Below are positions 6,950 through 23,678 of a stretch of 24,108 nucleotides of DNA, in pieces. The notes under the pieces are model-generated. The model was not told the origin of the DNA and searched no databases. It saw only the letters and a list, made by a program, of their open reading frames with translations. The stretch covers positions 1 through 24,108 of the IMG/VR virus record IMGVR_UViG_3300027779_000155. One strand, given 5' to 3'. Made by a program: the position numbers and the translations under genes. Position 1 is the first letter of the stretch. Each line of letters starts with the position of its first letter. The DNA comes from a virus.

Positions 6950-8549
6950 ATATCAGCTACGCGCAAAAGATAAGACTAAAAATGCTTTTAAATCAGTAGG
7001 CAGAGGTCTTAACAAACTTAGAAAAAGCGTTTTTTCTTTAAAAGGTGCATTCGTAGGTGCTATTGGTATTGGTGGTATAGGTCTATTTATTAAAAAAACC
7101 TTAGAAAGCATTGATACTAATAAAAAAATGGCTGATAGTCTGGGCCTTACTACGCATCAACTAGGCGGCTTTGAGTATGGCGCTGCATTAGCTGGTGAAA
7201 GCATTGAAACAGTACAAAAGGGATTGCAAAAATTAGATTTTAATCTAGGGCAAGCATCTCAGGGTATTGGGCAAGCCAAATATGCTTTAAAAACTTTAAA
7301 TATTTCTTTTAAAGACTTAAACAAGCTTCAACCTAATGAAAGATTTTTAGCCGTCGCTGATGCTATTGGACAATTAAAAACCAGACAAGAACAAGCAACA
7401 ATAGCCGGCGAATTAATGGGTAAATCTGGTTTAAAGTTAATGCTCTTATTTGATGGCGGATCTAAAGCTATTAGAGAATTTCAAAAAAAAGCCGAAGATT
7501 TAGGCATATCATTAAGCAGAGAGCAATCTGCAAAAGTAGAAAAATTTGTAGATATGTTTCATACCCTTAAAGTGGTTTTACAAGGAGTGGGAAATACATT
7601 AGTTGTTGCCTTAGTTCCATTTATGGAAGCTTTCTTATCTGTATCACTTAAAGTATTGGAAGCATGGGTATTGGATGGAGGGCCAGCCAGAGCGGCTCAA
7701 GATATGTCAGATGCTATAAAATCAGCATTAAGATTTATTGCTGGTTTTGTGACGTTTTTAAATCAAGCTGTAATATCTAGTGCTATCTTGTTAAAAAACA
7801 TCCAAGAATTAAAAGCAATAGATATTGTAAAAAAAGTAGCAAATTTATTTAATCCTTTTGCATTGCTAGGCAAGGGAATGCTAATAGATCCAGCTCTTGA
7901 AGTTAGCCCAGACGCTGAAAAAACCCTTAAAGAAAAAATTGCCGATTTAACAGTAATGTTCGATAATGCATTTGGTAATTCATTAAGTGCGGCCAATGAA
8001 GGTATAATTGCCCTTTCTTCAAATCTAAATGATACCGCCGGAGATGCTCAAAAGCCTTTAGCCGCATTAACAACTAGTTTTAGCGAACTAAAAACTACTG
8101 CTTTAGTGGGTTTTGGCAATGCTTTTGGCTCTACAATGGAGCAGGTATTAGCTGGCACTAAAAAAATGAGCGATGCCTTTAAAGATTTAGGCAAAGTCAT
8201 AATTAGCTCATTAATAAATATTTTTGTAGCTCAAATGTTAGTTAATCCTTTAGCTGGAGGACTTGGCATGATTGACGGGTTAGCTAAACGCGCCGCTGGC
8301 GGTCCAGCCAGAGGGGGAACGCCTTATATAGTTGGAGAGCGTGGCCCAGAACTATTTGTTCCTAATTCATCTGGTAGAGTTATCCCTAATCACAAAATGG
8401 GTGGATCTGGTGGCGGTGTTACAGTAGTACAAAATATTAATTTTGCTACAGGTATACAGGCTTCAGTTAGAAGTGAAGTTCTACAACTACTGCCAGCTAT
8501 TGCACAAGTATCTAAAGGTGCAGTACAAGATGCAAGATTAAGGAAATAA
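6933..8549 (+). CDS. Tail tape measure protein
   Basis: 538 residues, short for this family. The N-terminus is basic (KVEYQLRAKDKTKNAFKSVG), followed by a hydrophobic Gly-rich stretch at about residues 37-53 and long helices. Another hydrophobic region lies near residues 215-235. The C-terminus has GGPARGGTPYIVGERGPELF and VPNSSGRVIPN, a well-known tape measure ending. The protein sets tail length as a ruler and is carried into the cell with DNA. Using the general rule of about 0.15 nm per residue, a tail of roughly 80 nm is expected; that figure is an estimate. Confidence 0.9.
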   Translation: MAKKVEYQLRAKDKTKNAFKSVGRGLNKLRKSVFSLKGAFVGAIGIGGIGLFIKKTLESIDTNKKMADSLGLTTHQLGGFEYGAALAGESIETVQKGLQKLDFNLGQASQGIGQAKYALKTLNISFKDLNKLQPNERFLAVADAIGQLKTRQEQATIAGELMGKSGLKLMLLFDGGSKAIREFQKKAEDLGISLSREQSAKVEKFVDMFHTLKVVLQGVGNTLVVALVPFMEAFLSVSLKVLEAWVLDGGPARAAQDMSDAIKSALRFIAGFVTFLNQAVISSAILLKNIQELKAIDIVKKVANLFNPFALLGKGMLIDPALEVSPDAEKTLKEKIADLTVMFDNAFGNSLSAANEGIIALSSNLNDTAGDAQKPLAALTTSFSELKTTALVGFGNAFGSTMEQVLAGTKKMSDAFKDLGKVIISSLINIFVAQMLVNPLAGGLGMIDGLAKRAAGGPARGGTPYIVGERGPELFVPNSSGRVIPNHKMGGSGGGVTVVQNINFATGIQASVRSEVLQLLPAIAQVSKGAVQDARLRK

Positions 8550-10597: not shown

Positions 10598-12307
10598 ATG
10601 GAAGCAATAGGAACAGCCATAGTCGGAGCGGCTAATTGGATAGCTGGGGCATTAACTGGTGTTAATCCTGCTTTTATTGGGCCGCTTCAAACTGGAGCAA
10701 TTACTGCAGGTCAAATGGCCGCATATACCGCTATAGCTTGGACATCTACAGCGATTATTACTGGCGTGCCGTTATATTTTGCAGCTCAGGCCATGATGCC
10801 TAAAATGGCTACTATGATGGGTAGAACTGATACAGTTAGAAGTCCAATTCAAAGTAGAAAAATAGTTTATGGAAGGGCTGTATTAGGTGGCACAATTCTT
10901 TATATTTCAGAAAGTGAACAAGGTGGACAAATTAACAGGGGAAATCTGTATATTTTATTAGGTATAGCTGGACATGAAGTAGAAGAATTTGAAACATTTT
11001 ATTTTGATGGTGAGGAATTAACTATAGTTAATGGACAAGTTGAAGCTCCATCAAGATACAATCCTACCCCTTCTATTGGTAGATTTGCTAATCTGGATTC
11101 ATCTATGAGAGGACAAACAGGACAAACACAAAATACTAATTTTGTTACATATACTGATTTAACAGCTTCAGATACTTTTGATGGAATAGCTTGCGTACCT
11201 ATGATTCTTGGCTATAACCAAGAAATTTACGTGAATGGTATTCCGAATTTAACAGTAAAAGCAAAAGGAGCTAAATTATATGATCCTAGGGATGGTTTAA
11301 CGTCTTGGAGCGATAACCCAGCTTTAGCAATTAGGGACTATTTAACGAATACGCAGTATGGTTTAGGTGTACCAACATCTAGAATAGATGATACAACTTT
11401 TAGCTCTGCTGCTAACTTATGTGATGAGCTAATCACTTTAGACGATAGCTCTACTCAAAAAAGATATGCCTGTAATGGTGTATTAGATACAGCTACCTCA
11501 TTTCAAGATAATTTAGAAACTTTACTATCATCGCTTGCAGGAAATATGACTTATAGCGGAGGGAAATTTAAGTTATACGGCGGAGAGTACAGATCACCTA
11601 CTGCAACTATTACTGAAGATGATATAGTAGGTGTTTTAGACATACATAGTAAAAACTCACGTAGAGATCAATTCAACACCATAAAAGGTATTTTTATGGG
11701 TGATGAAACGGACAACGTGCCGGCAGACTACGCAACTATTAAATCTACAACAGCAATTACAGAAGATGGCGAAGTATTAGAAAAAGAATTACCATTACCC
11801 ATGACTAATAATTCTGTTACTTGTGAAAGAATAGCTAAGATTTATTTAGAAAAGAATAGAAGGCAAGTTAACATGACAATGCTTTTATCTTTAAAACAAT
11901 TTGCACTAGAGCCTATGCAGGTAGTTAACGTAACTTTACCGGCGCTTGGATATGAAAACAAAACATTTGAAATTGTTAACTGGAGTTTAGAAAACCAAGG
12001 CAATACTTTAGGCGTTTCTGTTATGTTGCAAGAGACGGACGCTTTAGTATATGAATGGACTAGCGCTGAAGAAATTGGATATACACAAACAACCGCACCA
12101 GTTGCTACTAATTATATGACTGTAGCTGTGCCAGCATCATCATTGGCGGTTGTCTCTACTACTGGAGAAGATGGAACAATTCAAGATGTTGTAGAGGTAA
12201 CAATAGTAGATGATCCAGAAGATCCCCACATTGTTGATTATGATATTTACTGGAAAGATACAACAGAAACAGATTTTGAAACTTTAAGTGTATTAAGGGA
12301 TGTATAA
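10598..12307 (+). CDS. Tail tip attachment protein gpJ-like, N-terminal part
   Basis: 569 residues. After a hydrophobic Ala/Gly-rich start come RKIVYGRAVLGGTILYISES, then LGIAGHEVEEFETFYFDGEE, AIRDYLTNTQYGLGVP and a conserved baseplate-hub-like body. This is the typical order in gpJ-like proteins that form the tail tip and bind the receptor. The C-terminus enters a fibronectin type III-like domain (VDYDIYWKDTTETDFETLSV) and stops after LRDV. The rest of that domain appears at the start of the gene at 12855, after two lysis-type genes. The frame therefore looks split by an insertion. The stop overlaps the next start as TAATG. Confidence 0.85.
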   Translation: MEAIGTAIVGAANWIAGALTGVNPAFIGPLQTGAITAGQMAAYTAIAWTSTAIITGVPLYFAAQAMMPKMATMMGRTDTVRSPIQSRKIVYGRAVLGGTILYISESEQGGQINRGNLYILLGIAGHEVEEFETFYFDGEELTIVNGQVEAPSRYNPTPSIGRFANLDSSMRGQTGQTQNTNFVTYTDLTASDTFDGIACVPMILGYNQEIYVNGIPNLTVKAKGAKLYDPRDGLTSWSDNPALAIRDYLTNTQYGLGVPTSRIDDTTFSSAANLCDELITLDDSSTQKRYACNGVLDTATSFQDNLETLLSSLAGNMTYSGGKFKLYGGEYRSPTATITEDDIVGVLDIHSKNSRRDQFNTIKGIFMGDETDNVPADYATIKSTTAITEDGEVLEKELPLPMTNNSVTCERIAKIYLEKNRRQVNMTMLLSLKQFALEPMQVVNVTLPALGYENKTFEIVNWSLENQGNTLGVSVMLQETDALVYEWTSAEEIGYTQTTAPVATNYMTVAVPASSLAVVSTTGEDGTIQDVVEVTIVDDPEDPHIVDYDIYWKDTTETDFETLSVLRDV

Positions 12308-14332: not shown

Positions 14333-14359
14333 ATGCCTCTGGTATGCCTTTAGATGCCT
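14333..14359 (+). repeat. Left arm: three ATGCCT repeats
   Basis: ATGCCT occurs at 14333-14338, 14344-14349 and 14354-14359, 11 and 10 bases apart. The third lies within TTTAGATGCCT (14349-14359), which recurs in the right arm. They are likely arm-type binding sites for the N-terminal domain of the integrase. Confidence 0.65.
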
Positions 14360-14432
14360 AAAAAGTTATTTCGCCACGTTACACTAGATATTACTAGCTT
14401 TCATTTCGCTTTAGTGTTATAAGCTCAAAACC

Positions 14433-14462
14433 TTTACTCACGTTCAAAGTTGAGGGTTTAAT
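14433..14462 (+). promoter_or_regulatory. Weak candidate promoter upstream of the tRNA-Pro fragment
   Basis: TTTACT (14433-14438) and TTTAAT (14457-14462) are 18 bases apart and end seven bases before the tRNA-like 5' end. If integration fuses this side to the host 3' half, the phage would have to supply transcription for the rebuilt tRNA. The match to consensus is weak. Confidence 0.25.
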
Positions 14463-14469
14463 TAATGTT

Positions 14470-14513
14470 CGGGGCGTAGCGCAGTCAGGTAGCGCATCTG
14501 GTTTGGGACTAGA
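14470..14513 (+). tRNA. Partial tRNA-Pro(TGG), 5' half only; predicted attP core
   Basis: The 44 bases contain the acceptor 5' strand CGGGGCG, a D-arm (GCGC...GCGC), and an anticodon arm TCTGG-TTTGGGA-CTAGA with one G-U pair and anticodon TGG. After 14513 there is no T-arm (no TTCGA-type loop), and only CCCCCG at 14531-14536 resembles an acceptor 3' strand. It is thus not a working tRNA. The inverted anticodon stem around a 7-base loop (14502-14508) is the usual crossover site for tyrosine integrases that use tRNA genes. Confidence 0.75.
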
Positions 14514-14567
14514 TGCAGATACAGACAAAACCCCCGTAAATCAGCCATTATCATCAAAAAACACCAT

Positions 14568-14589
14568 TTTAGATGCCTTTTATATGCCT
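14568..14589 (+). repeat. Right arm: two ATGCCT repeats
   Basis: TTTAGATGCCT (14568-14578) is identical to the left-arm element, and ATGCCT recurs at 14584-14589, 11 bases on. The pair ends seven bases before the -35 box of the integrase promoter, so integrase binding could also affect its own transcription. Confidence 0.65.
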
Positions 14590-14595
14590 AAATAA

Positions 14596-14624
14596 TTGAC
14601 GCGAGACATCACATCAAGTATACT
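14596..14624 (+). promoter_or_regulatory. Sigma70-type integrase promoter
   Basis: TTGACG (14596-14601) and TATACT (14619-14624) are separated by exactly 17 bases, a strong match. Transcription would begin near 14631, between this site and the GGGAG ribosome-binding site at 14638-14642. The -35 box overlaps an operator-like palindrome. Confidence 0.75.
14597..14611 (+). promoter_or_regulatory. Operator-like site at the integrase promoter
   Basis: TGACGCGAGACATCA matches TGACGTTTGACATCA at the early promoter (20791-20805) in 12 of 15 positions. It has the same half-site layout, TGACGY-N3-ACATCA. It covers the -35 box, so binding would block polymerase. Confidence 0.6.
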
Positions 14625-14649
14625 TCTTAATATTAATGGGAGTTTTAAA

Positions 14650-15987
14650 ATGGATTACACAATAAAAAAAATAAATGAAAAGAATAAAGATTACTGGAGA
14701 ATTGATTTTAGATACTATGCTTATTCAGATAATTTAGTTAATCAAAGCTTAATAGGTAGATCTAAAAGAGTAAAAATTTTAGCCAGTAAAAAAAATAAAT
14801 CTCAGGTAGAGGATCACGCTAAGAAAATAATTAGTCAATCTAATCCAGATTATGATAATGGAATTTTTCTAATTAAAGAATTTTTCGGAGTAGGAAAATT
14901 AGTTAATGATCCCCAGAGTAATCAAGGACAAAAAAAACTTATTCCAAATGATAAAGATTCATCTTTAGGCTACTGGTATGCCAACACAAGATTTAATGAT
15001 TATAGAACTTTTAATAAACCTTCGTTAAAAACCTTGGAGTTTGAATTTTGCGCAATGAAAAAATTTGTAGAGATTGCCGGAGATCAAGAATTTGATAAAT
15101 TAGATGTCGATACTTTTGCTAGAGAACTTTATAGGAATATTCAAAAGGGCGGTTTTGTGTGGGATGAAATTTCTAATAAGGCTAGAAAGTATACAACATT
15201 TAAAAAATATTTAAGTACGATTAAAATGGGTTGTAGGAAACTTTCAAAAAAATATAAAAAAAGAGATATATGGGAACATTTCGAACCTATCCCAGAACCC
15301 AGCAAAGAAGAATCAAAAAACTCTAAAGCATTAAGGGTGACTGATGATCATATTAAATATGTTTATGAGGCGATGCTAAAACAGTATTATACCGGCAATC
15401 AAAACAGAGGAAAAGAAATAGCTGCATACAGGACCAACAAAATAGATCTTCAATGGAGGTTTTATTCTGAAACTGGATGCAGACGTAATGAGCTAACTGG
15501 GCTTACGTGGGATAAGATTATTCTAGATCATAATGGCTTGCCAGAAATAAAAATTACGCAGCAATTTCATTCAGTAGAGAATAAATTAACAGATCTTAAA
15601 AACAGAAAAAAATGCGATAAAATTATTTCTGAAAAGCTTTATAAGGATCTAATGGATTATAAAAAATCTATGCCTCTTATTGAACAAAAAAACGATATTG
15701 TTTTTCCTAATACTTTTGGCGAATTTGATAAAAGAAATTCTCTTTATAGAACTCTTAATAATACAAATAAAAATCTATTTGGAGATCTAAGCGTAGGTGG
15801 TGATAAGTGGATAAGAGTGCATGACATTAGACATTATTTTGCTACGAAACTTATAAGAAAGGGAATTAGTTTAGCTGATGTATCTCAGTTGCTAGGGCAT
15901 AGCAATGAGACAGTGACAGCCTCTATCTATGTTCAAGACTATAAACTAACTGATGAAAGCAAAGGTAATGTAAGGGCTGCCCTTTAA
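14650..15987 (+). CDS. int: Tyrosine recombinase integrase
   Basis: 445 residues from ATG 14650, preceded by GGGAG at 14638-14642. An in-frame TTG at 14596 is rejected as a start because it is the -35 box of the promoter. Residues ~1-75 hold a beta-rich arm-binding domain, ~110-220 a helical core-binding domain, and the rest the catalytic domain. Catalytic residues are visible: Arg278 in GCRRNEL, His391 and Arg394 in HDIRH, His417 in LGHSNE, and nucleophile Tyr427 in SIYVQDY. The enzyme inserts the phage at a host tRNA-Pro gene using the attP just upstream. Confidence 0.93.
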   Translation: MDYTIKKINEKNKDYWRIDFRYYAYSDNLVNQSLIGRSKRVKILASKKNKSQVEDHAKKIISQSNPDYDNGIFLIKEFFGVGKLVNDPQSNQGQKKLIPNDKDSSLGYWYANTRFNDYRTFNKPSLKTLEFEFCAMKKFVEIAGDQEFDKLDVDTFARELYRNIQKGGFVWDEISNKARKYTTFKKYLSTIKMGCRKLSKKYKKRDIWEHFEPIPEPSKEESKNSKALRVTDDHIKYVYEAMLKQYYTGNQNRGKEIAAYRTNKIDLQWRFYSETGCRRNELTGLTWDKIILDHNGLPEIKITQQFHSVENKLTDLKNRKKCDKIISEKLYKDLMDYKKSMPLIEQKNDIVFPNTFGEFDKRNSLYRTLNNTNKNLFGDLSVGGDKWIRVHDIRHYFATKLIRKGISLADVSQLLGHSNETVTASIYVQDYKLTDESKGNVRAAL

Positions 15988-16079
15988 ATGCTAGAGCAAC
16001 GGATTAGGGATCAGTAAGCCTAGACTGTATTACAACTGTACGTTTATAATTATGTATTACGTTAAGCATATACGATAGA

Positions 16080-16100
16080 CTCCTTATATATTTATAGGAG
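16080..16100 (+). promoter_or_regulatory. Hairpin that hides the ribosome-binding site of the next gene
   Basis: CTCCT (16080-16084) pairs with AGGAG (16096-16100), the ribosome-binding site of the AlpA-like gene. ATA (16086-16088) pairs with TAT (16093-16095), leaving a 4-base loop and one bulged T. Closing this stem would lower initiation. Two copies of TGTATTAC lie upstream at 16026-16033 and 16053-16060; their role is unknown. Confidence 0.5.
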
Positions 16101-16106
16101 GCTATT

Positions 16107-16292
16107 ATGACATTTGATAAAAATCGTTTACTATCAAGGACTGAAGTTGCACTTTTAATGGGTAAATCAGCGGCTACTATCCAAAGATGGGAAAGCGAGG
16201 GTATATTTCCAAAAAGTGTACGAGCAAATAAAAAATGTAAAGCTATGTATCGTCAAGATGATCTAAATGATTGGATGAATGCTAAAAGATAA
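16107..16292 (+). CDS. AlpA/MerR-type HTH protein, excisionase candidate
   Basis: 61 residues with AGGAGG five bases before the ATG. RTEVALLMGKSAATIQRWES is a helix-turn-helix, followed by a wing with EGIFPKSVRANKKCKAMYRQ and a last helix DDLNDWMNAKR. This is the AlpA-like layout shared by many phage excisionases, which bend attP/attL DNA and steer integrase towards excision. It lies just after the integrase on the same strand. It could instead be a transcription factor, since AlpA itself activates transcription. Confidence 0.72.
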   Translation: MTFDKNRLLSRTEVALLMGKSAATIQRWESEGIFPKSVRANKKCKAMYRQDDLNDWMNAKR

Positions 16293-16310
16293 TTAAGGAA
16301 TTGACCTTAA
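16293..16310. other. Short inverted repeat between convergent genes
   Basis: TTAAGG (16293-16298) and CCTTAA (16305-16310) form a perfect 6-bp stem with loop AATTGA, placed between the ends of the convergent genes at 16292 and 16307. The stem is AT-rich and no T-run follows on either strand, so termination here is only possible, not shown. Confidence 0.3.
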
Positions 16311-16744
16311 AGCAAATTAAAGGATTTTATGGGGAAATGAACGATAGGCCCTATATCGCGCTTATCGTTCCTATAGTCTTTATACTGCATTCCTAGCTCT
16401 GTTTTTACGGTCATCATGTCCACATATCCAATAGATCCACAGCCCAGCCATTTAACTAGAAATAATACCGGTATAGTGAATAATTTACCTTTATCTTTAG
16501 CAAAGCTATACTTTTTTAACGAACAAATAACAGTGGGATAAGTATTAAGAGAATTAGATCTAACTCTAACTTCTACAAAAGCCACATACTTATTATCTCT
16601 TTTACAAATATAATCTAAAGGATATTGAGGGCCGCAATCTTCAGCAACAAAATCCCATTTATCCATTAGCATCTCTATTGCATTTTGCTGGTTAGATCTA
16701 TCGTTTCCATCTTCATATAGCCTATAAGGAGGATTAATGCTCAT
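16307..16744 (-). CDS. PD-(D/E)XK-like nuclease fold protein
   Basis: 145 residues from ATG 16744, with GAGG six bases upstream; the longer TTG start at 16756 would overlap that site. The chain has an N-terminal helix with Glu24, then YPLDYI (Asp44), then a strand KYVAFVEVRVRS with Glu58 and Arg60. This matches the D...E-x-[KR] core of PD-(D/E)XK nucleases, with Arg in place of the common Lys. Such proteins act as resolvases, exonucleases or restriction-type enzymes. It is the last gene of the leftward recombination operon, so a role in phage recombination is plausible. Confidence 0.5.
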   Translation of the reverse strand: MSINPPYRLYEDGNDRSNQQNAIEMLMDKWDFVAEDCGPQYPLDYICKRDNKYVAFVEVRVRSNSLNTYPTVICSLKKYSFAKDKGKLFTIPVLFLVKWLGCGSIGYVDMMTVKTELGMQYKDYRNDKRDIGPIVHFPIKSFNLL

Positions 16745-16859
16745 TACATACCTCAATTTCTTTGTTTAGGTCCTGCCAGTTTTTATTAACTAACCCCATA
16801 GAAAAGACTAAAAAAAGAACGCATAAAATAATAAATAATATTTCAAAATTAACTTTCAT
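16734..16859 (-). CDS. Small single-pass membrane protein
   Basis: 41 residues from ATG 16859. Residues 4-24 are strongly hydrophobic (NFEILFIILCVLFLVFSMGL), followed by a charged tail (VNKNWQDLNKEIEVCNEH). The stop overlaps the next start by 11 bases, as expected for coupled phage genes. A purine-rich GGAGAG lies about a dozen bases upstream, rather far for initiation. Spanin-like or superinfection-type roles are possible but not supported. Confidence 0.5.
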   Translation of the reverse strand: MKVNFEILFIILCVLFLVFSMGLVNKNWQDLNKEIEVCNEH

Positions 16860-16968
16860 TTAGGGCGTACTCTCCTACAATTTGATTTTTAGCTTTAATC
16901 AAAATTAAATCATCCGCAGCATTCCCATGAATATTAAAAAAACATACTGCTAGTAAAAATCCGTTCAA
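16849..16968 (-). CDS. Possible small exported protein, TTG start
   Basis: 39 residues if the TTG at 16968 is used. The chain is a hydrophobic stretch (NGFLLAVCFFNIHGNAADD) followed by LILIKAKNQIVGEYALNES. It looks like a signal peptide with a short tail and overlaps the next start by 11 bases. No ATG is available in the frame and the ribosome-binding site is poor. It could be chance. Confidence 0.25.
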   Translation of the reverse strand: MNGFLLAVCFFNIHGNAADDLILIKAKNQIVGEYALNES

Positions 16969-16986
16969 TACAATCTCACAAATGTA

Positions 16987-17001
16987 AGGCTTAAAAAGCC
17001 T
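16987..17001 (-). other. Hairpin downstream of the HTH gene
   Basis: AGGCTT and AAGCCT pair perfectly around a 3-base loop, nine bases past the stop of the gene at 17010. The T-tract needed for an intrinsic terminator is missing, so it may only slow or process the leftward transcript. Confidence 0.3.
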
Positions 17002-17009
17002 CTTAAAGT

Positions 17010-17279
17010 TTATTTCTCATAGGTTATTTCTCCAGATTTAAGATGGTTAAACCTCCAGACTTCCTCATTATTAAAATACCAGACTTGCCTTTTTTTTCCT
17101 CCCAGTCTTTGTACTGGTTGTGGGAAAGTATAGGTATTCACTCTGCGGTACAGGCGTTGCATAGTAGCGCTTTTACTTTTCTTATAGTCTCTGGCCCATG
17201 TAACGCGACAAACATCGTCACTACTCATTTGGGCGTTTTCACTTTCATATGAATAAAAATTATTTATAGAATGGGACAT
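17010..17279 (-). CDS. Small winged-HTH-like DNA-binding protein
   Basis: 89 residues from ATG 17279; the frame is open further upstream but that part lies inside the preceding gene. After a polar N-terminus comes DDVCRVTWARDYKKSKSATM, then QRLYRRVNTYTFPQPVQRLG and GKKRQVWYFNNEEVWRF. The FPxPV, a basic turn, then a W-rich strand and helix is the wing pattern of AlpA/excisionase-like proteins. It overlaps the gene before by 20 bases. A regulator or accessory recombination protein is likely. It is a second candidate for excisionase. Confidence 0.5.
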   Translation of the reverse strand: MSHSINNFYSYESENAQMSSDDVCRVTWARDYKKSKSATMQRLYRRVNTYTFPQPVQRLGGKKRQVWYFNNEEVWRFNHLKSGEITYEK

Positions 17280-17793
17280 CTTCTGAGTATCCTTCTGGGT
17301 TATATTTTTGCTCTTGATTATCTTTGTTTTTATAAGCTGCAGCCCTAGAATTAACGTCCCCTTGATCAGAATTAAGCCTGTCATTTTGATTTCTATTGGC
17401 CAGATAATCTATATCAGCTGGGCTGTGGGTTAAAAATTGGAGGTGGGCGTTGCTTTTAAACTGATCAGCAATGTCATTTAGCCAAAGTTTACCAGTTACT
17501 AATATTGAAGCTTTTCCTGATCCCTCAGATTTTTCTACAAGTCTATAGCCCATAATATCAGCTAATAATTTTAAAAATCTAAATGGAATTTCACATAAAC
17601 AAGATTGATACTCTATACCAATATTTCTGCCTTGCTCACTAAAATTTCTTTTAATATAAATAGATAGTAACTCTAAGGGGTTGAGGTAATATTCTTTTGG
17701 TTTTTTTTCTCTTTGTTCCATTTGTTTAGCCTTGTTTTGTAAATAAATTTTATTATTAATTCCTACTAGGGTATCGCCAAATTTAAACGCCAT
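17260..17793 (-). CDS. Unknown recombination-operon protein with SSB-like tail
   Basis: 177 residues, starting on the stop of the ERF gene (TAATG). The N-terminus is Lys-rich (NKAKQMEQREKKPKEYYLNP), the middle holds EIPFRFLKLLADIMGYRLV and a beta strand SGKASILVTGKLWL, and the last third is polar, low-complexity and Asn/Gln-rich. It ends SEDVPFYK, close to the acidic DDIPF tip by which SSB proteins recruit partners. A disordered tail with such a tip next to an annealing protein suggests an SSB-like or loader protein. The fold is not recognised. Confidence 0.4.
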   Translation of the reverse strand: MAFKFGDTLVGINNKIYLQNKAKQMEQREKKPKEYYLNPLELLSIYIKRNFSEQGRNIGIEYQSCLCEIPFRFLKLLADIMGYRLVEKSEGSGKASILVTGKLWLNDIADQFKSNAHLQFLTHSPADIDYLANRNQNDRLNSDQGDVNSRAAAYKNKDNQEQKYNPEGYSEDVPFYK

Positions 17794-18329
17794 TATCCTT
17801 TTTTGTATTGATTATATGCAGGTTGTTTAACTCTCTCTGGGCCGTTGTCTATATCGTTGTCATCTGCTGCTAAATCCAGCATCATATATTTTAAATATCG
17901 CCGGTTATAACTAATAGCCTTACCCATTGCCTGATTATCATTTTTAGAGCTTTCATGGAGTAGGGGGAGACTTGCAGATAGATATTGATTTTCCTTCATA
18001 ATCTTATAAGTAATATAAAGTTTACCATCTGGATCTTTTTCGGTTTGAAAAATAGAGCAAATACCTTGCTTTACTAAAGCCTCTTTTGTAGCGTTTTCAA
18101 TAGAAACTAAAGAGGCCCATGCAAATGTAAAAGTATGATTGGCTGAGCTGTCCTTTTTTACTTCTTTAAATTCCCCTTGGGCAGCACTTAAAGCCTTAGT
18201 AATAACATCTATATCATTGCTAGTTTTTACTATTGTCATAGCTGGACTTAACTTTAAGCCTTCTACCTCTATAGGGTTTTCATAATATTCTTTAATTTCT
18301 TTTTCTAAATCTCGATTAACTTCACTCAT
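17793..18329 (-). CDS. erf: ERF-family single-strand annealing protein
   Basis: 178 residues. SPAMTIVKTSNDIDVITKAL starts an ERF-like core (PF04404), with NHTFTFAWASLVSIENATKE, a central beta strand KLYITYKIMKEN and the motif NDNQAMGKAISYNRRYLKYM. The A-x-[TS]YxRRYxL-type segment is a family hallmark. The protein binds and pairs single-stranded DNA for recombination or circularisation. AAGGTGA precedes the ATG by a suitable distance, and the start overlaps the gene before as ATGA. It lies in the leftward operon, as do the lambda recombination genes. Confidence 0.85.
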   Translation of the reverse strand: MSEVNRDLEKEIKEYYENPIEVEGLKLSPAMTIVKTSNDIDVITKALSAAQGEFKEVKKDSSANHTFTFAWASLVSIENATKEALVKQGICSIFQTEKDPDGKLYITYKIMKENQYLSASLPLLHESSKNDNQAMGKAISYNRRYLKYMMLDLAADDNDIDNGPERVKQPAYNQYKKG

Positions 18330-19000
18330 TTAATTTCACCTTGAGCAAAATGTTTTATTAAAGTATCTAAATGGGTAACATTGAACGGAGTTATATCTAT
18401 TGAATCTTCATAAAACCATTTAAAAAAACCCCGCCACTGATCTAAAGTTTTTTTAATTCCGCCTCTTGTCCTTTTATTTTTTTTAGAGCTGCCGGAAAAT
18501 TCAGCGTTTAATAAATCATTGGCATATTCTATTAATTTTTCTGGCGTAACTCTATTTACAGGGACATATTTTTTATCACCTTTGTATGCGCACTTAATAA
18601 GCGTATCCATGTTTGGCCTTATGTCGTCAAAACTTTGAAGATCCTTTTTTTTATAAAGAAAACAATTAACTGGCAATTTTAGTATTAATTCTGGGTTAGT
18701 AATAAAAGCTCCATTAGATCTGTTAGAAATAAAATAACTTTGGTTAGATAAACTACTGTCTCCATAAATTAAGCATTTTAGATCAGTCTTTCTTTGATTA
18801 GAGCTTAAACGGCTTTGTTTTTTAATTTCTTTTTTAAGTATTAGAGCCTCATCTCTCCAATAAACTTTTGTCCTGCCTAATTCGGGTATAGTAAAACTTT
18901 TAGTTATTTTATGTTCCTTTTCCATTTTAAAAATCTCTTGCTCAGTTAAATCTAATAAGCTGGCAAAATTAGTACGCGTTATTATTTTTTCAATATTCAT
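18326..19000 (-). CDS. Unknown protein with HTH-like N-terminus
   Basis: 224 residues. Residues ~8-60 read TNFASLLDLTEQEIFKMEKE, then a loop and RTKVYWRDEALILKKEIKKQ, which resembles a MerR/AlpA-like helix-turn-helix with wing. The middle has LKLPVNCFLYKKKDLQSFDD and a basic region SSKKNKRTRGG; the C-terminus has aromatic helices (DQWRGFFKWFYEDSI). It is coupled to the ERF gene and follows a 38-residue gene. A role in leftward early functions is expected from context. The family is not recognised. Confidence 0.45.
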   Translation of the reverse strand: MNIEKIITRTNFASLLDLTEQEIFKMEKEHKITKSFTIPELGRTKVYWRDEALILKKEIKKQSRLSSNQRKTDLKCLIYGDSSLSNQSYFISNRSNGAFITNPELILKLPVNCFLYKKKDLQSFDDIRPNMDTLIKCAYKGDKKYVPVNRVTPEKLIEYANDLLNAEFSGSSKKNKRTRGGIKKTLDQWRGFFKWFYEDSIDITPFNVTHLDTLIKHFAQGEIK

Positions 19001-19113
19001 TTTAATTCCTTTAATAGTTGCCTTATTTTTTCGTGGCGAGTTTTTTCACTTAATAATTTTGTACGAACTATTAAGCGCTTTTCTTTTTCTTCTAATAAAT
19101 TGATAACTCCCAT
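18997..19113 (-). CDS. Small charged helical protein heading the leftward operon
   Basis: 38 residues from ATG 19113, ending as ATGA on the next start. The chain MGVINLLEEKEKRLIVRTKL then LSEKTRHEKIRQLLKELK is almost wholly helical and basic. No good ribosome-binding site is visible, so it might be leaderless or chance. In lambda the first gene of this operon is the small basic antiterminator N, but nothing in this sequence proves such a role. Confidence 0.4.
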   Translation of the reverse strand: MGVINLLEEKEKRLIVRTKLLSEKTRHEKIRQLLKELK

Positions 19114-19124
19114 AGGAGTACTAA

Positions 19125-19148
19125 AAAGGATATGTTGTGAAACGTCAA
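19125..19148 (-). promoter_or_regulatory. Candidate leftward early promoter (PL-like)
   Basis: On the minus strand TTGACG (bases 19148 down to 19143) is a good -35 box. The -10 region near 19120-19125 (TTTAGT) is weak. The -35 box is shared with an operator-like palindrome, and the leftward operon begins at 19113. The site would be the counterpart of lambda PL. Confidence 0.4.
19133..19147 (-). promoter_or_regulatory. Operator-like site at the leftward promoter
   Basis: On the minus strand this reads TGACGTTTCACAACA and matches the early-promoter site TGACGTTTGACATCA in 13 of 15 positions. It covers the putative -35 box. Confidence 0.6.
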
Positions 19149-19151
19149 ATA

Positions 19152-19166
19152 TGATTTAATACATCA
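19152..19166 (+). promoter_or_regulatory. Second operator-like site, weaker
   Basis: TGATTTAATACATCA keeps both half-sites, TGA-x-x-T and ACATCA, around a 3-base centre and matches the consensus in 10 of 15. It lies five bases from the first leftward site, so cooperative binding of two repressor dimers is possible. Confidence 0.45.
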
Positions 19167-19173
19167 CTTAGCT

Positions 19174-19199
19174 CGCGTGACGTTACGCGCGTGACGTTA
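19174..19199 (+). repeat. Tandem 12-bp repeat in the leftward control region
   Basis: CGCGTGACGTTA occurs at 19174-19185 and 19188-19199, a 14-base period. Each copy carries TGACGT, the left half-site of the operator. The first copy also reads almost the same on both strands (CGCGTGACGTTACGCG). GC-rich repeats stand out in this AT-rich DNA. They may bind the repressor, the Cro-like protein or a host factor. Confidence 0.55.
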
Positions 19200-19227
19200 A
19201 GAGTGGGATCATCATTAAAATGAAACT

Positions 19228-19911
19228 TTAATTATTATCGTCTGGAAAAATTTTACTAGCGAATTGCTCTCTAATATCTTTAGGACATAAAAGTAAAATT
19301 TCTTCAAATTTTTCTAATACCTCCCCTAATGGATTTGCAATAGCTGCTGTACCTATTTTATCATTTGTAAAATCATTTAATTGCTTTTTATTGTAGTATT
19401 CCATTTGAAAATTTTTAGGTTGATCAATTCCTCGCGGCAGAATATCAGTATTAACCATATAAACAAATTTAGGCGCTTTATAATCTTTTGTCATTTCTTG
19501 TTGATATTCATTTAATTCCTTATATGGAACTCTGATAAGCAATTTAATTTTATTTAATTTAGTCATCATTCCGGTCACAGCAGATAAGCTAAAATCAAAA
19601 TCATAACCATTTAAGGAATCTTTAACTCCAGAGGTACTTAAAAAGGGGCATTTGCTTCTAGCTATTCTCCAGAAAAATAACTCTACCATTGTCTCGACTA
19701 ATGTAAGATCTTCTAAATTTCTTTGAATGTTTAAAGACATAACAGAAATTTGCTGCATCTGGGCCACGTGAAATAATGTTAAAGCAGATTCTATTAATTC
19801 ATCAAAGGGCAGATCTGTCCAATTAACATCATAGTTAAATTTTTTATCTTTATTGTTTAAAAGCCTAGCATTGCTAATAGCTATGTTTTTTAATAAACTT
19901 TCCTTATTCAT
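19228..19911 (-). CDS. Unknown protein in the lambda rex position
   Basis: 227 residues from ATG 19911, overlapping the repressor stop by eight bases (ATGAATAA) with AGG upstream; a longer start at 19950 would lie deep in the repressor gene. The chain is helical (FDELIESALTLFHVAQMQQI, LVETMVELFFWRIARSKCPF) with a beta segment KIKLLIRVPYKELN and an acidic end FPDDNN. No signal peptide, membrane segment or catalytic motif is visible. Made together with the repressor, it would be expressed in lysogens, as rexA and rexB are in lambda. Superinfection exclusion or host modulation is inference. Confidence 0.5.
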   Translation of the reverse strand: MNKESLLKNIAISNARLLNNKDKKFNYDVNWTDLPFDELIESALTLFHVAQMQQISVMSLNIQRNLEDLTLVETMVELFFWRIARSKCPFLSTSGVKDSLNGYDFDFSLSAVTGMMTKLNKIKLLIRVPYKELNEYQQEMTKDYKAPKFVYMVNTDILPRGIDQPKNFQMEYYNKKQLNDFTNDKIGTAAIANPLGEVLEKFEEILLLCPKDIREQFASKIFPDDNN

Positions 19912-20590
19912 AGATAACCTGAGTTCCAACGAATAATTGTATATAATCAATTTTTTTTATATCAAAAATCTTTTGTGGTTTTGCTAAAACTTTTTCATGG
20001 TCTTTAAACATAAGAGACTGAAATTCCTTAATGCCGGTTACGCCTATTTCATCTTGAATATGATTTATTTTGAAGTCTATGCCGAAATAAGGATGAAGCC
20101 TTATATCCTTAAAAACAATTAATCCAGCTTTATTAGCAATTAATGAGCTATAGGGATCTAGCTTCTTAGATTTAATTAAATAATAGTGAGTCCTCTGAGG
20201 TAGGGGCAATTTTAGGCATAAGTAATCATCTGGGTAATGAGCTACAAATTTAACATCTTCACCCTTTCTTAATATAATAGTTTCGGCATCATCGTCCATA
20301 ATGCCAACGCAGGGAACGCATCTAGATTTTAAGATAGTATCATCTACTAAATCCTCTGGGTTTGCTTCTATATCTCTTTGTTCATATAGGCCCTGTATTA
20401 AAGTATTAATATGTTCATGGGTAATTCTTTGAACTGGTGATAGGTCAGATTTAAGATTACACCAGCGGCTGACTGTTTCTCTTCTTACGCTGCATATCTC
20501 GGCTATAAGTTGCTGGCTTATTTGATTATCAGTTATATATTGACCTAGCTTAGATTTACCAAACTTAGACATTGATAGTATCTCTCCCAT
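19904..20590 (-). CDS. XRE-type phage repressor (CI-like)
   Basis: 228 residues from ATG 20590, with GGGGAG five bases upstream. Residues ~23-46 (QISQQLIAEICSVRRETVSR) form a helix-turn-helix. The C-terminal two thirds contain VPCVGIMDDDAETIILRKGE and YDFLCLKL-like strands resembling the fold of S24-type repressors, but I find no GDSM serine motif. Auto-cleavage after DNA damage therefore seems unlikely. Divergent orientation to the early genes and the operators between them mark it as the lysogeny repressor. Confidence 0.75.
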   Translation of the reverse strand: MGEILSMSKFGKSKLGQYITDNQISQQLIAEICSVRRETVSRWCNLKSDLSPVQRITHEHINTLIQGLYEQRDIEANPEDLVDDTILKSRCVPCVGIMDDDAETIILRKGEDVKFVAHYPDDYLCLKLPLPQRTHYYLIKSKKLDPYSSLIANKAGLIVFKDIRLHPYFGIDFKINHIQDEIGVTGIKEFQSLMFKDHEKVLAKPQKIFDIKKIDYIQLFVGTQVIYE

Positions 20591-20604
20591 GATTTCTCCC
20601 CATT

Positions 20605-20633
20605 ATTATAATTTATTAAAAAAATATTCAAGA
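20605..20633 (-). promoter_or_regulatory. Candidate repressor promoter (PRM-like)
   Basis: On the minus strand TATAAT (20610 down to 20605) is a perfect -10 box. TCTTGA, 17 bases upstream (20633 down to 20628), is a poor -35. Transcription would begin near 20598, so the message would have a very short leader that starts at the ribosome-binding site. A weak -35 is common where the repressor activates its own gene. Confidence 0.45.
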
Positions 20634-20694
20634 TAAAGAGCTAATTTTTTTGTTTTTTTTATTAGTTCTTTGTTATGACGAATATTGATTCTGT

Positions 20695-20730
20695 ATTTAA
20701 TATTGTTACAAATCAAATTTAATATTAAAT
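20695..20730. repeat. AT-rich repeat and palindrome in the immunity region
   Basis: ATTTAATATT occurs at 20695-20704 and 20717-20726, 22 bases apart, two turns of the helix. The second copy is part of a perfect 14-bp palindrome, ATTTAATATTAAAT (20717-20730). The 240 bases from 20591 to 20831 hold no gene; they hold promoters, operator-like sites, this repeat and a DnaA box. TGACG at 20676 and TGATGT at 20749 look like single operator half-sites. Confidence 0.45.
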
Positions 20731-20773
20731 AATCTTAAAAATCAATAGTGATGTTACGGATTAAAAATTTTCT

Positions 20774-20782
20774 TGTGGATAA
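20774..20782 (-). other. DnaA box, perfect match
   Basis: TGTGGATAA is the exact complement of the DnaA consensus TTATCCACA. It lies next to a long AT-rich stretch and nine bases before the operator at the early promoter. It could mark an origin or let DnaA affect early transcription. Confidence 0.45.
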
Positions 20783-20790
20783 CTCAATTA

Positions 20791-20805
20791 TGACGTTTGA
20801 CATCA
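20791..20805 (+). promoter_or_regulatory. Operator-like palindrome at the rightward early promoter
   Basis: TGACGTTTGACATCA has half-sites TGACGT and (complement) TGATGT around TTG. It overlaps the -35 box of the early promoter and is the reference for the related sites at 14597, 19133 and 19152. Confidence 0.65.
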
Positions 20806-20826
20806 CTTAAAAAGTATTCTTAAATA
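20797..20826 (+). promoter_or_regulatory. Rightward early promoter (PR-like)
   Basis: TTGACA (20797-20802) is a perfect -35 box. TAAATA (20821-20826), 18 bases on, is the likely -10. Transcription would start near 20832-20833, at the first ATG itself, so the first gene may be read from a leaderless message. Confidence 0.6.
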
Positions 20827-20831
20827 TAAAA

Positions 20832-21056
20832 ATGCAAATATTTATAGAACAGGCTGAAAATGTATATGACACTTTAATAGAAAAAGGTATGACGCATTTA
20901 GGGATGCTTAATAAACTTAACATTATTCATGGTTTTGGGATCAATGAGGGTGTTTATAACTCTGTAGATGAATTTCCGGATCAGCAGTTCAGCCCAAACG
21001 AGCCGACAACTAAATTTTTAATCTATCAAATGATCTTAAATGAATCTCACCAGTAA
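20832..21056 (+). CDS. First early gene, unknown small protein
   Basis: 74 residues. No ribosome-binding site precedes the ATG, and the predicted transcription start falls at the same place, which suggests leaderless translation. The chain has a helix (QAENVYDTLIEKGMTHLGML), then NKLNIIHGFGINEGVYNSVD and a helix at the end (TTKFLIYQMILNESHQ). It overlaps the Cro-like gene by 17 bases. Position favours a regulator, but no HTH is clear. Confidence 0.5.
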   Translation: MQIFIEQAENVYDTLIEKGMTHLGMLNKLNIIHGFGINEGVYNSVDEFPDQQFSPNEPTTKFLIYQMILNESHQ

Positions 21057-21219
21057 ACAAATGGCAGAAATAATGATCCGTACAGGAACATCTAAAACGG
21101 ATCTTTTTTCTAAGCTCAATATTTTTACAGCTCAATCAAATGACATGATTAAAGGAAAAATTAAAGTTTCGGATGAAGTGTCTCGATATTTAATAGGCCG
21201 CCTCCATGCTAACAAATAA
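21040..21219 (+). CDS. Cro-like HTH protein
   Basis: 59 residues, overlapping both neighbours. TSKQMAEIMIRTGTSKTDLF is followed by SKLNIFTAQSNDMIKGKIKV and SDEVSRYLIGRL. The run of short helices with a K-G-K before the last helix is like Cro/CI-type DNA-binding domains, in which the third helix reads DNA and the segment before the last helix is often NG(K/R). It is the likely opponent of the repressor at the shared operators. No ribosome-binding site is strong; translation is coupled to the previous gene. Confidence 0.5.
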   Translation: MNLTSKQMAEIMIRTGTSKTDLFSKLNIFTAQSNDMIKGKIKVSDEVSRYLIGRLHANK

Positions 21220-21475
21220 AGCGCGCAATAATCTAAGTTTTCATAAATTAGTAGCGAGAATATACAAAGATACATTTAGTCCTGAAAATGTATCTTTCAG
21301 GGAAAAAGATGCAATTAAGCAAAAAGAATTAAGAAATCAACGCTTAAAGCGTAAATGGTCTTTCAACTATGAAAAAGAATTAGAGAGAAATGATCTTAGC
21401 CCTATTCAAAGAGAAAATTATAGAAAAAATCTTATCTTGAAAGAAAATAACGAGTTTCCAGAGTTAAAAGAATGA
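21206..21475 (+). CDS. Unknown small basic early protein
   Basis: 89 residues rich in Lys, Arg, Glu and Asn (RNNLSFHKLVARIYKDTFSP, KELRNQRLKRKWSFNYEKEL). It is probably helical, with no membrane segment. It overlaps the previous gene by 14 bases and its stop forms ATGA with the next start. Charge and place fit a nucleic-acid-binding or host-directed early protein, but no family is recognised. Confidence 0.5.
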   Translation: MLTNKARNNLSFHKLVARIYKDTFSPENVSFREKDAIKQKELRNQRLKRKWSFNYEKELERNDLSPIQRENYRKNLILKENNEFPELKE

Positions 21476-21627
21476 CTACATATAGTTTAAATACTTTTAC
21501 ATTATTTTTATTTATATGTGAGTACGCATATACAAATACATCAAAGCAAATGGACTACATTGTAAGTATTATACATAGGTATTCAAACACTCAGTCAATA
21601 CCTAAAAAAATGTATAGTTTCGAATAA
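21472..21627 (+). CDS. Unknown small early protein
   Basis: 51 residues, starting on the stop of the gene before (ATGA at 21472-21475). The first half is hydrophobic and aromatic (YSLNTFTLFLFICEYAYTNT) and the second half polar (MDYIVSIIHRYSNTQSIPKK). The hydrophobic part is short for a membrane span but not impossible. Coupling to its neighbour is the main support. Confidence 0.42.
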   Translation: MTTYSLNTFTLFLFICEYAYTNTSKQMDYIVSIIHRYSNTQSIPKKMYSFE

Positions 21628-21636
21628 CGTGGATAA
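21628..21636 (-). other. DnaA-box-like site, one mismatch
   Basis: CGTGGATAA differs from the complement of TTATCCACA at one end position. It overlaps the GTG start of the next gene, so it may be chance. Confidence 0.2.
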
Positions 21637-21814
21637 GTTAACTCAAAATAATGACACTATCTACATCATGCCTAGACATTGTTCAGGTTTGAACTCTCTC
21701 AATATTTTTATAAACGATGAAGAATTTAATAAAATTTTATCTGAATACGAGATCTTAAATCTCATTTCAGGGTTAACAGAATTATTAAAGCAAACTGAGA
21801 GGGGTATCAAATGA
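21629..21814 (+). CDS. Unknown small early protein, GTG start
   Basis: 61 residues from GTG 21629; the only other in-frame choice is an ATG at 21668 that has no ribosome-binding site either. The chain has TIYIMPRHCSGLNSLNIFIN followed by a helical half (FNKILSEYEILNLISGLTEL). Its last four bases overlap the next start as ATGA. No family recognised. Confidence 0.45.
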   Translation: MDKLTQNNDTIYIMPRHCSGLNSLNIFINDEEFNKILSEYEILNLISGLTELLKQTERGIK

Positions 21815-22215
21815 AAAAAAAGGCATGGGCTACAGATGAAGAAATAGCGGATCTTGATGACTTATTTAGAGAGGCAGCGCTAACAGACTCGCGATTACCA
21901 ACAGTAATAAAAAAACGTATTAACACTAGCTGGCTAGAAATTCCCTCAGATTGGAATCAGTACGGCTGGGATAAGGATGCTATTCCAAGAATACAGCCAA
22001 GTAAAGACCAGATAGACAGGTATCAAGAGGCTTTAGAGCTAGGACTAAAGCTACCAGAAGAAGACAGGCGATTAATATGGGCAGTTGCTATATCTATGCG
22101 AGAGCGCAGCCATGGCACATGGACTAGGCTGGCAAAAAAATACCGGTGTGATCGTAGAACTGTAAAATCTAATCATCGCGGGGCATTGATGCGGGCCTTT
22201 CAGGTTAGCCAGTAA
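21811..22215 (+). CDS. DUF6362-like HTH protein
   Basis: 134 residues. The middle has PSDWNQYGWDKDAIPRIQPS followed by QIDRYQEALELGLKLPEEDR and LIWAVAISMRERSHGTWTRL. The end has AKKYRCDRRTVKSNHRGAL, a helix-turn-helix. The order W-x-Y-GW, P-x-x-x-x-ID, then RRLIW and a terminal HTH is typical of DUF6362 proteins of alphaproteobacterial phages, thought to be regulators. It may act as a late or middle gene activator. It joins the methyltransferase gene as TAATG. Confidence 0.62.
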   Translation: MKKKAWATDEEIADLDDLFREAALTDSRLPTVIKKRINTSWLEIPSDWNQYGWDKDAIPRIQPSKDQIDRYQEALELGLKLPEEDRRLIWAVAISMRERSHGTWTRLAKKYRCDRRTVKSNHRGALMRAFQVSQ

Positions 22216-23678
22216 TGGTAATGAATGTACTTAGTTTATTTGACGGAATGTCATGCACTCAGATTGCATTAAAGAATTTAGGCATCAAAGTAGATACCTA
22301 TTATGCAAGTGAGATAGATAAATATGCCATTAAAGTAGCAAAAGAAAACTTTCCAGAAACAATACACCTTGGTGATATTAAAGATATTAAAGGTAAAGAT
22401 TTACCTGAGATTGATTTAATTGTTGCGGGCAGCCCTTGTCAGGGTTTTTCTTTTGCGGGTAAGCAATTAGCTTTTGATGATCCACGTTCAGCATTGTTCT
22501 TTGAGTTTGTTCGATTGTTAAAAGAAGTTAAACCTAAATACTTCTTGCTTGAGAATGTTCGTATGAAGAAAGAACACATGGATGTTATCTCGCAACAAGT
22601 GTCAGAGGTATATCCAGAATGCAGTAACGGAAGTTTGTTTGGTATTGAACCAATAAAGATTAACTCTGCACTTGTTTCAGCTCAAAATAGAAACAGATTG
22701 TATTGGACTAACATACCAAACATTGAACAACCAGAAGATGTTGGTTTGGTATTGAGGGATGTATTAGAGGATTTTCTAGGTAAAGAACATAATGCAGGCG
22801 AAGAATTACAAAAAAATTATAAAGGTGGAAATCAATTAAATCCTAATTATAAGAGTCAAGCTAACACTATTCATAATATAGATGAAAAATCTGCAACGAT
22901 ATCAGCAGGAACACATGGCTATGCGAATGGCTATGTGCATGATAAAGATTTAGAGTGGGTAAAAACACCACAATATCTTAAAAATAAATTGTATGGAGTG
23001 CCTAGAGGTGAGTATGTAAAAGGAGTTGATGAAAAATCAAATACCCTTAGTGCTACTATGTATAAAGGACAAATATCAGCTTATGTAAAAAGAAGGGATG
23101 AAGACTTAAAGAAGATGACAACCAAAGAAGGTAAGGCTTTTGTTTTAACAGCATCCTATCAAGGGGCTGCTTCTTGGAATAGCATTGAACGAAAACAAAG
23201 GACAATGATTCCTACTTACAATACACCTAAACAAGTTGGCACTACCGCAGACTTAAAGGGTTTTGATATTATTAAGAGAGTGTACTCAGAAGATGGTAAA
23301 TCACCAACACTTACAACAATGGGTGGTGGACATAGAGAACCTAAAGTTGCAGTTAAAGGTGGTGCTTTAAGGGCTAGATCTAAAAATAAAGAAGGTAAAA
23401 ATGTTGAGTGGAAAAAAACTAAACCTCAACAAATGTTAGAGTTAAGAAAGGATGATAAAAGTAATTCTTTAACATCATCAACAAAAGATAGCCTTGCAGT
23501 TAAAGAAGAAGAACTAACTTGGCGTAAGTTAACGCCATTAGAATGTGAGAGATTGCAAACAGTTCCAGATAACTATACGGCTGCCGTATCAAACACGCAA
23601 AGATACAAAATGCTTGGTAACGGATTTACTGTAAAAGTTATTGAACACATATTAACAAACATGGATAAGGATGCTTAG
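22215..23678 (+). CDS. DNA cytosine-C5 methyltransferase
   Basis: 487 residues. The SAM-binding motif I is LSLFDGMSC (6-14). The catalytic motif IV is GSPCQGFSFAG with Cys75, motif VI is ENV (113-115), motif VIII is QNRNR (157-161), and the late motifs are ECERLQTVPDNY and KMLGNGFTVKVIE. The enzyme methylates C at a specific sequence, likely to hide phage DNA from restriction. Between motifs VIII and IX lies a long target-recognition region with four related segments near 223, 272, 360 and 413, each with KSxT- or KSxS-like cores (DEKSATIS, DEKSNTLS, GKSPTLT, DKSNSLT). No partner nuclease is seen beside it. Confidence 0.92.
   Translation: MVMNVLSLFDGMSCTQIALKNLGIKVDTYYASEIDKYAIKVAKENFPETIHLGDIKDIKGKDLPEIDLIVAGSPCQGFSFAGKQLAFDDPRSALFFEFVRLLKEVKPKYFLLENVRMKKEHMDVISQQVSEVYPECSNGSLFGIEPIKINSALVSAQNRNRLYWTNIPNIEQPEDVGLVLRDVLEDFLGKEHNAGEELQKNYKGGNQLNPNYKSQANTIHNIDEKSATISAGTHGYANGYVHDKDLEWVKTPQYLKNKLYGVPRGEYVKGVDEKSNTLSATMYKGQISAYVKRRDEDLKKMTTKEGKAFVLTASYQGAASWNSIERKQRTMIPTYNTPKQVGTTADLKGFDIIKRVYSEDGKSPTLTTMGGGHREPKVAVKGGALRARSKNKEGKNVEWKKTKPQQMLELRKDDKSNSLTSSTKDSLAVKEEELTWRKLTPLECERLQTVPDNYTAAVSNTQRYKMLGNGFTVKVIEHILTNMDKDA

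Follow-up and report, generated by a model that had tools for sequence, protein, structure and literature searches.

A symmetric dyad at the early, recombination and integrase promoters of an uncultured marine temperate phage is a candidate operator for a single repressor

The DNA analysed here, which we call the window, is the whole of record IMGVR_UViG_3300027779_000155, a linear viral fragment of 24,108 bp. It encodes head, portal and tail proteins, an integrase, a small excisionase-like (xis-like) HTH protein, a recombination operon, the product of a divergent HTH gene, and early genes (Table 1), and its source is read as an uncultured marine temperate phage. Among named phages, those closest in the portal protein are Roseobacter phages (~38%). 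We saw no terminase genes at either end of the fragment, and intergenic sequence makes up 5.7% of the contig. The integrase gene has its own promoter, and the tRNA-Pro segment held in the attP-like region is 95% identical to phage tRNA-Pro genes. A DNA methyltransferase gene (22215-23678; phrog_116, E = 1.1e-74) lies near the contig end.

Table 1. Features of the window and of the related phage G010 (L090 coordinates). Scores out of 15 are matches to the site at 20791; dyad mismatches are counted against TGAYGTNNNACRTCA.
Feature	Position	Strand	Details
Window
attP-like region	14333..14589	.	repeats around the 5' 40 nt of tRNA-Pro (14474-14513)
attP-like flanking repeats	14333-14359; 14567-14589		ATGCCT ... 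TTTAGATGCCT; TTTAGATGCCTTTTATATGCCT
Candidate operator, integrase promoter Pint	14597..14611	+	TGACGCGAGACATCA; 12/15; 1 dyad mismatch
Tyrosine integrase with own promoter	14650..15987	+	PF00589, E = 1.7e-19
Possible weak operator, upstream of xis-like gene	16050..16064	.	TTATGTATTACGTTA; 2 dyad mismatches; intergenic
Small HTH protein, excisionase-like	16107..16292	+	HTH_17, E = 6.6e-7; phrog_66 excisionase, E = 3.7e-9
Leftward recombination operon	16307..19000	-	PF04404, PF24579 matches
PDDEXK nuclease	16307-16756	-
Operon members	17260-17793 and 17010-17384	-
Erf	17793-18329	-
Operon member	18326-19000	-	hypothetical protein
Candidate operator, leftward recombination promoter PL	19133..19147	-	TGACGTTTCACAACA; 13/15; 1 dyad mismatch
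Second candidate operator, leftward promoter	19152..19166	.	TGATTTAATACATCA; 10/15; 1 dyad mismatch; 19 bp from first
Candidate immunity repressor	19904..20590	-	N-terminal helix-turn-helix, strand-rich C-terminal half
Candidate operator, rightward early promoter PR	20791..20805	+	TGACGTTTGACATCA; 15/15, exact; contains TTGACA (20797-20802)
Rightward early genes	20832..22215	+
G010
Perfect dyad before holin-like gene	2876
Perfect dyad, integrase promoter	6531		between TTGATT (-35) and TATAAT (-10)
Weak pair before reading frame after int and tRNA gene	8253/8274		21 bp apart
Weak pair, leftward promoter	12447/12467		20 bp apart
Single weak site	13912		20 bp from early site
Perfect dyad, early promoter PR	13932

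The divergent HTH gene is our candidate for the immunity repressor, on the basis of its position, its orientation, weak HTH matches and a distant homologue in a related phage, G010, described below. The HTH matches were marginal, neither S24 nor any other repressor family was matched, and the AlphaFold model of the protein is poor (mean pLDDT 37).

A preliminary description of this DNA had noted four related 15-bp elements, a full match at 20791 and scores of 13/15, 12/15 and 10/15 at 19133, 14597 and 19152, with half-sites TGAYGT and ACRTCA around a 3-base centre. All four are present at those positions and with those scores. When the 24-kb contig was searched with the dyad TGAYGTNNNACRTCA (TGAYGT-N3-ACRTCA) at no more than one mismatch, these four alone were matched; every one is intergenic and none lies within a gene, the comparison of genic with promoter matches that the same description had called for. 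At the 14597 site the one mismatch falls in a single half-site (TGACGC). The site at 20791 lies in the intergenic space between the divergent repressor gene and the first early gene, and at the equivalent position G010 has TTAATGTATTACATTAA. TTGAC(A/G) hexamers overlap three of the four sites, in agreement with the earlier observation that three sites cover a -35 box: TTGACA is contained in the site at 20791, TTGACG on the minus strand overlaps that at 19133, and Pint consists of TTGACG (14596-14601), a 17-bp spacer and TATACT (14619-14624), with a promoter score of 10/12. Pint is thus a good promoter; the -10 boxes at PR and PL of the window are less clear.

Several other elements were seen around these sites. 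A 12/15 match to the operator at 15822-15836 is within int and is probably due to chance. A terminator-like match over the Pint site was set aside, as five such matches were found in the region against a shuffled mean of 3.3. Direct repeats CGTGACGTTA occur at 19176 and 19190, upstream of the leftward sites (region 19174-19199), and GTGATGTTACGG occurs at 20747-20760, upstream of the early site. In both the window (20815-20832) and G010 (L090 13953-13973), the first early gene begins ~5-15 nt from the likely -10 box, and early transcripts of both phages may have almost no leader.

How much weight the window motif bears depends on how the pattern is chosen. With the dyad as given, the probability that all four matches are intergenic is 1.1e-5 for a pattern chosen after the fact, and 500 local dinucleotide shuffles of the window averaged 0.096 matches and never had more than two, none reaching the observed four, a figure that is optimistic because the pattern was derived from the sites themselves. 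We also ran an open-ended search, which covered all 6-base half-sites with one degenerate position allowed and spacers of 0-10 and scored intergenic enrichment. TGAYGT-N3 ranked first in the window, yet 39 of 100 shuffled windows equalled it, and an open-ended dyad comparison between pairs of promoter regions in the window was not significant. Since so many shuffles match the open-ended rank, the window by itself is suggestive of the motif and does not establish it.

Relatives were reached by portal alignment followed by a repressor search within the records so found. As single queries against viral contigs, the repressor, the integrase and Erf each returned no relatives, and the repressor returned nothing useful from named phages. 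Alignments of the repressor and the integrase led again to G010 and to no other relative; 48 further related records, many of them fragments, yielded no integrase and no repressor, and a scan of genome contigs gave one irrelevant Marinimicrobia fragment and nothing else. One independent temperate relative with both a repressor and an integrase was therefore found, namely G010 (IMGVR_UViG_3300030098_002632; 34,996 bp). It is syntenic with the window for int, the recombination genes, the repressor and the early genes, and has the same attP-like layout; identity to the window proteins is 28% for the repressor and 30% for the integrase. A complete tRNA-Pro(TGG) gene is present in G010 just 3' of int (L090 8167-8244), and an anticodon arm resembling that of tRNA-Pro lies in the attP-like region; the complete gene may make up for a host copy interrupted when the phage integrates. 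Two further relatives, G004 and G006, have portals ~79% identical and keep the recombination genes. We found no homologue of the repressor or of the integrase in either, and neither matched the window dyad or the G010 dyad at the thresholds used. At the corresponding positions G004 has a GHKL-ATPase-like gene (L092 7444-8946; a weak match) and another unrelated reading frame (11059-12162).

G010 has a dyad of its own, TTAATGT-N3-ACATTAA, which differs in sequence from that of the window and has the same 3-bp centre. Three perfect copies are present where 0.003 are expected, at the early promoter, at the integrase promoter and before a holin-like gene, and in each case 3-4 bases separate the dyad from a TATAAT-like box downstream. 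These dyads are without TTGACA. Allowing up to three mismatches, the G010 sites form three pairs at 20-21 bp (one of them made by the perfect early site and a weak neighbour); within the range of 10 to 40 bp no pair had a different spacing, and three such pairs appeared in none of 300 shuffles of G010. The open-ended search ranked this dyad family top, with seven intergenic and no genic sites, and none of 100 shuffles equalled its score (19.3, against 13.5 for the best of them). The holin-promoter site recurs, with an altered centre, in G014, which is closely related to G010. A second shared dyad, TAAGGCGT(T/G)CTACGCCGTAA, occurs in G010 in exactly two copies (L090 12481-12500 and 13882-13901), one ahead of the leftward promoter and one ahead of the early promoter, with an expectation of 0 in shuffles; the repeats CGTGACGTTA and GTGATGTTACGG of the window are possibly its counterpart.

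The G010 geometry, that is, a 3-bp centre and AYGT/ACRT inner bases with at most one mismatch, could then be taken as a prior for the window. Under this prior a dyad is present in all three window regions (int, early and leftward), a result matched by none of 300 shuffles. If any half-site is permitted, 5 of 300 shuffles match the three-promoter pattern and 1 of 300 reaches four sites in all. Like that of G010, the leftward promoter of the window has two sites, here spaced at 19 bp. For the weaker window site at 16050, ahead of the xis-like gene, the comparable G010 feature is the weak pair at 8253/8274.

The presence in G010 of its own dyad of the same geometry, perfect at the early and integrase promoters and weaker at the recombination promoter, is as predicted if one repressor serves PL, PR and Pint. 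The earlier proposal that a single operator links the early, recombination and integrase promoters thus gains support from the G010 pattern, while the open-ended search of the window did not reach significance for it. We consider it probable that the product of 19904-20590 is a dimeric immunity repressor that directly silences Pint, PR and PL. As far as can be read from the two sequences, the operator has changed along with the repressor between the window and G010. One dimeric repressor, most likely this protein, would read a 15-17 bp dyad (xxAYGT-N3-ACRTxx), and as the dyad overlaps the -35/-10 region, bound repressor would block RNA polymerase. On infection, with no repressor present, the early, recombination and integrase genes would all be on; as repressor accumulated, all three gene sets would be shut together; and on induction the integrase would be released along with the lytic genes. 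The spacing of the paired sites at the recombination promoters and at the G010 early promoter, 19-21 bp or roughly two turns of the helix, suggests cooperative dimers. Repression by binding, cooperativity and timing are what we infer from site placement and spacing.

Other proteins could be imagined at these sites. An excisionase (RDF) might act at att and Pint as well as at the early promoters, like Apl of phage 186; the integrase site lies a few bp from an attP repeat arm, the xis-like HTH gene comes after int in the window, and RDFs bind both att and pR-pL and repress int promoters (PMC7498355). RDFs, however, recognise direct repeats spaced by one helical turn (PMC7498355), whereas the sites here are dyads whose pairs are separated by about two turns. 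A perfect G010 site is moreover found at the holin promoter, 3.6 kb from the int site, and tblastn with the window xis-like gene found no homologue in G010, and we regard an excisionase as unlikely. A shade less likely still is binding by a regulator of the host or by some other phage product, for example a Cro-like early protein or the integrase. Host factors act on phage promoters, and a conserved small early protein of the window (21040-21219) matches no family. The two phages nevertheless have unlike dyads, and neither dyad is matched in the relatives that yielded no repressor or integrase; in G004, too, a protein related to the small early one was read, so that its distribution does not follow the sites; and the repeats flanking tRNA-Pro are the likelier arm sites for the integrase.

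Look-alike dyads might also arise by chance from TTGACA-like -35 boxes in AT-rich sequence, and the shuffles that equalled the open-ended search of the window, together with the non-significant comparison of its promoter regions, speak for such an origin. It is made very improbable, in our judgement, by the independent G010 result, by the geometry-constrained test in the window and by the G010 dyads that contain no TTGACA. We thus return to a single repressor as the preferred reading of the sites.

If so, the arrangement resembles the CI/OL/OR system of lambda in its divergent repressor and early genes, its leftward recombination operon, its promoter-overlapping dyads and its spaced sites. As in lambda-type immunity, candidate dyads lie between the repressor and the early operon and also at the leftward recombination promoter. 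In lambda, int is controlled via pL and the CII-dependent pI, and CI is not known to have an operator at the int promoter. Unlike in lambda, the sites here are not confined to PL and PR and are also found at Pint, and in G010 at Pint and the holin promoter. As to the HTH fold with an S24 (LexA-like) C-terminal domain of lambda-type repressors, 19904-20590 gave weak HTH matches, and no similarity to a repressor family or protease domain was found.

Operators beyond the early promoters have precedents. Cluster A mycobacteriophages have 20-30 asymmetric repressor sites per genome (stoperators), mostly off promoters, which act on elongation, and their lysogens are reported to express few loci, the integrase (or parABS) locus being one of them (PMC6550527). 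The window sites are like stoperators in extending beyond the early promoter, and the consensus of stoperators likewise shifts with the repressor between related phages (PMC6550527). Unlike stoperators, which are oriented with transcription and number tens per genome, a pattern not seen in the window, the window sites are symmetric, number four to five and all lie at promoter regions including Pint. The master repressor MrpR of SPbeta, an inactivated tyrosine-recombinase fold, has a 15-bp element (SPBRE) at several intergenic regions, and the SPbeta recombinase gene, sprA, is transcribed during vegetative growth (PMC10516654). A 15-bp element repeated at several intergenic regions is shared with the window, where the integrase promoter itself carries a candidate operator. 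In P4 and KplE1 an RDF represses the int promoter near att, and RDFs bind direct repeats spaced at 10-11 bp (PMC7498355). As predicted for the window, in these systems and with Apl of phage 186 a single DNA-binding protein contacts early promoters as well as the att/int region. The window differs from Apl/Cox-type RDFs in that its dyads are inverted and their pairs spaced at 19-21 bp, and G010 differs in having a site at the holin promoter. A limited search of open-access papers found no phage in which the repressor directly controls the promoter of the integrase gene. The preliminary description had spoken of a different lysogeny circuit; it does differ from that of lambda, but scattered operators are already known in other phages, and the circuit of the window is a variant on those.

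Little work has been done on how uncultured marine phages regulate lysogeny. We put forward, tentatively and with some doubt, that in a group of marine phages one repressor directly gates the early genes, recombination, the integrase, the gene after int and, in some members, the holin; that this replaces the indirect control of int through pL and CII in lambda; and that operator and repressor have diverged together. If true, this would be a complete circuit that places integration and lytic functions on one switch, and the circuit could be recognised in metagenomic contigs by one rule, the occurrence of a 3-bp-centred dyad at PR as well as at Pint. Operators and repressors that have diverged in step would also offer a natural pair for studies of immunity specificity.
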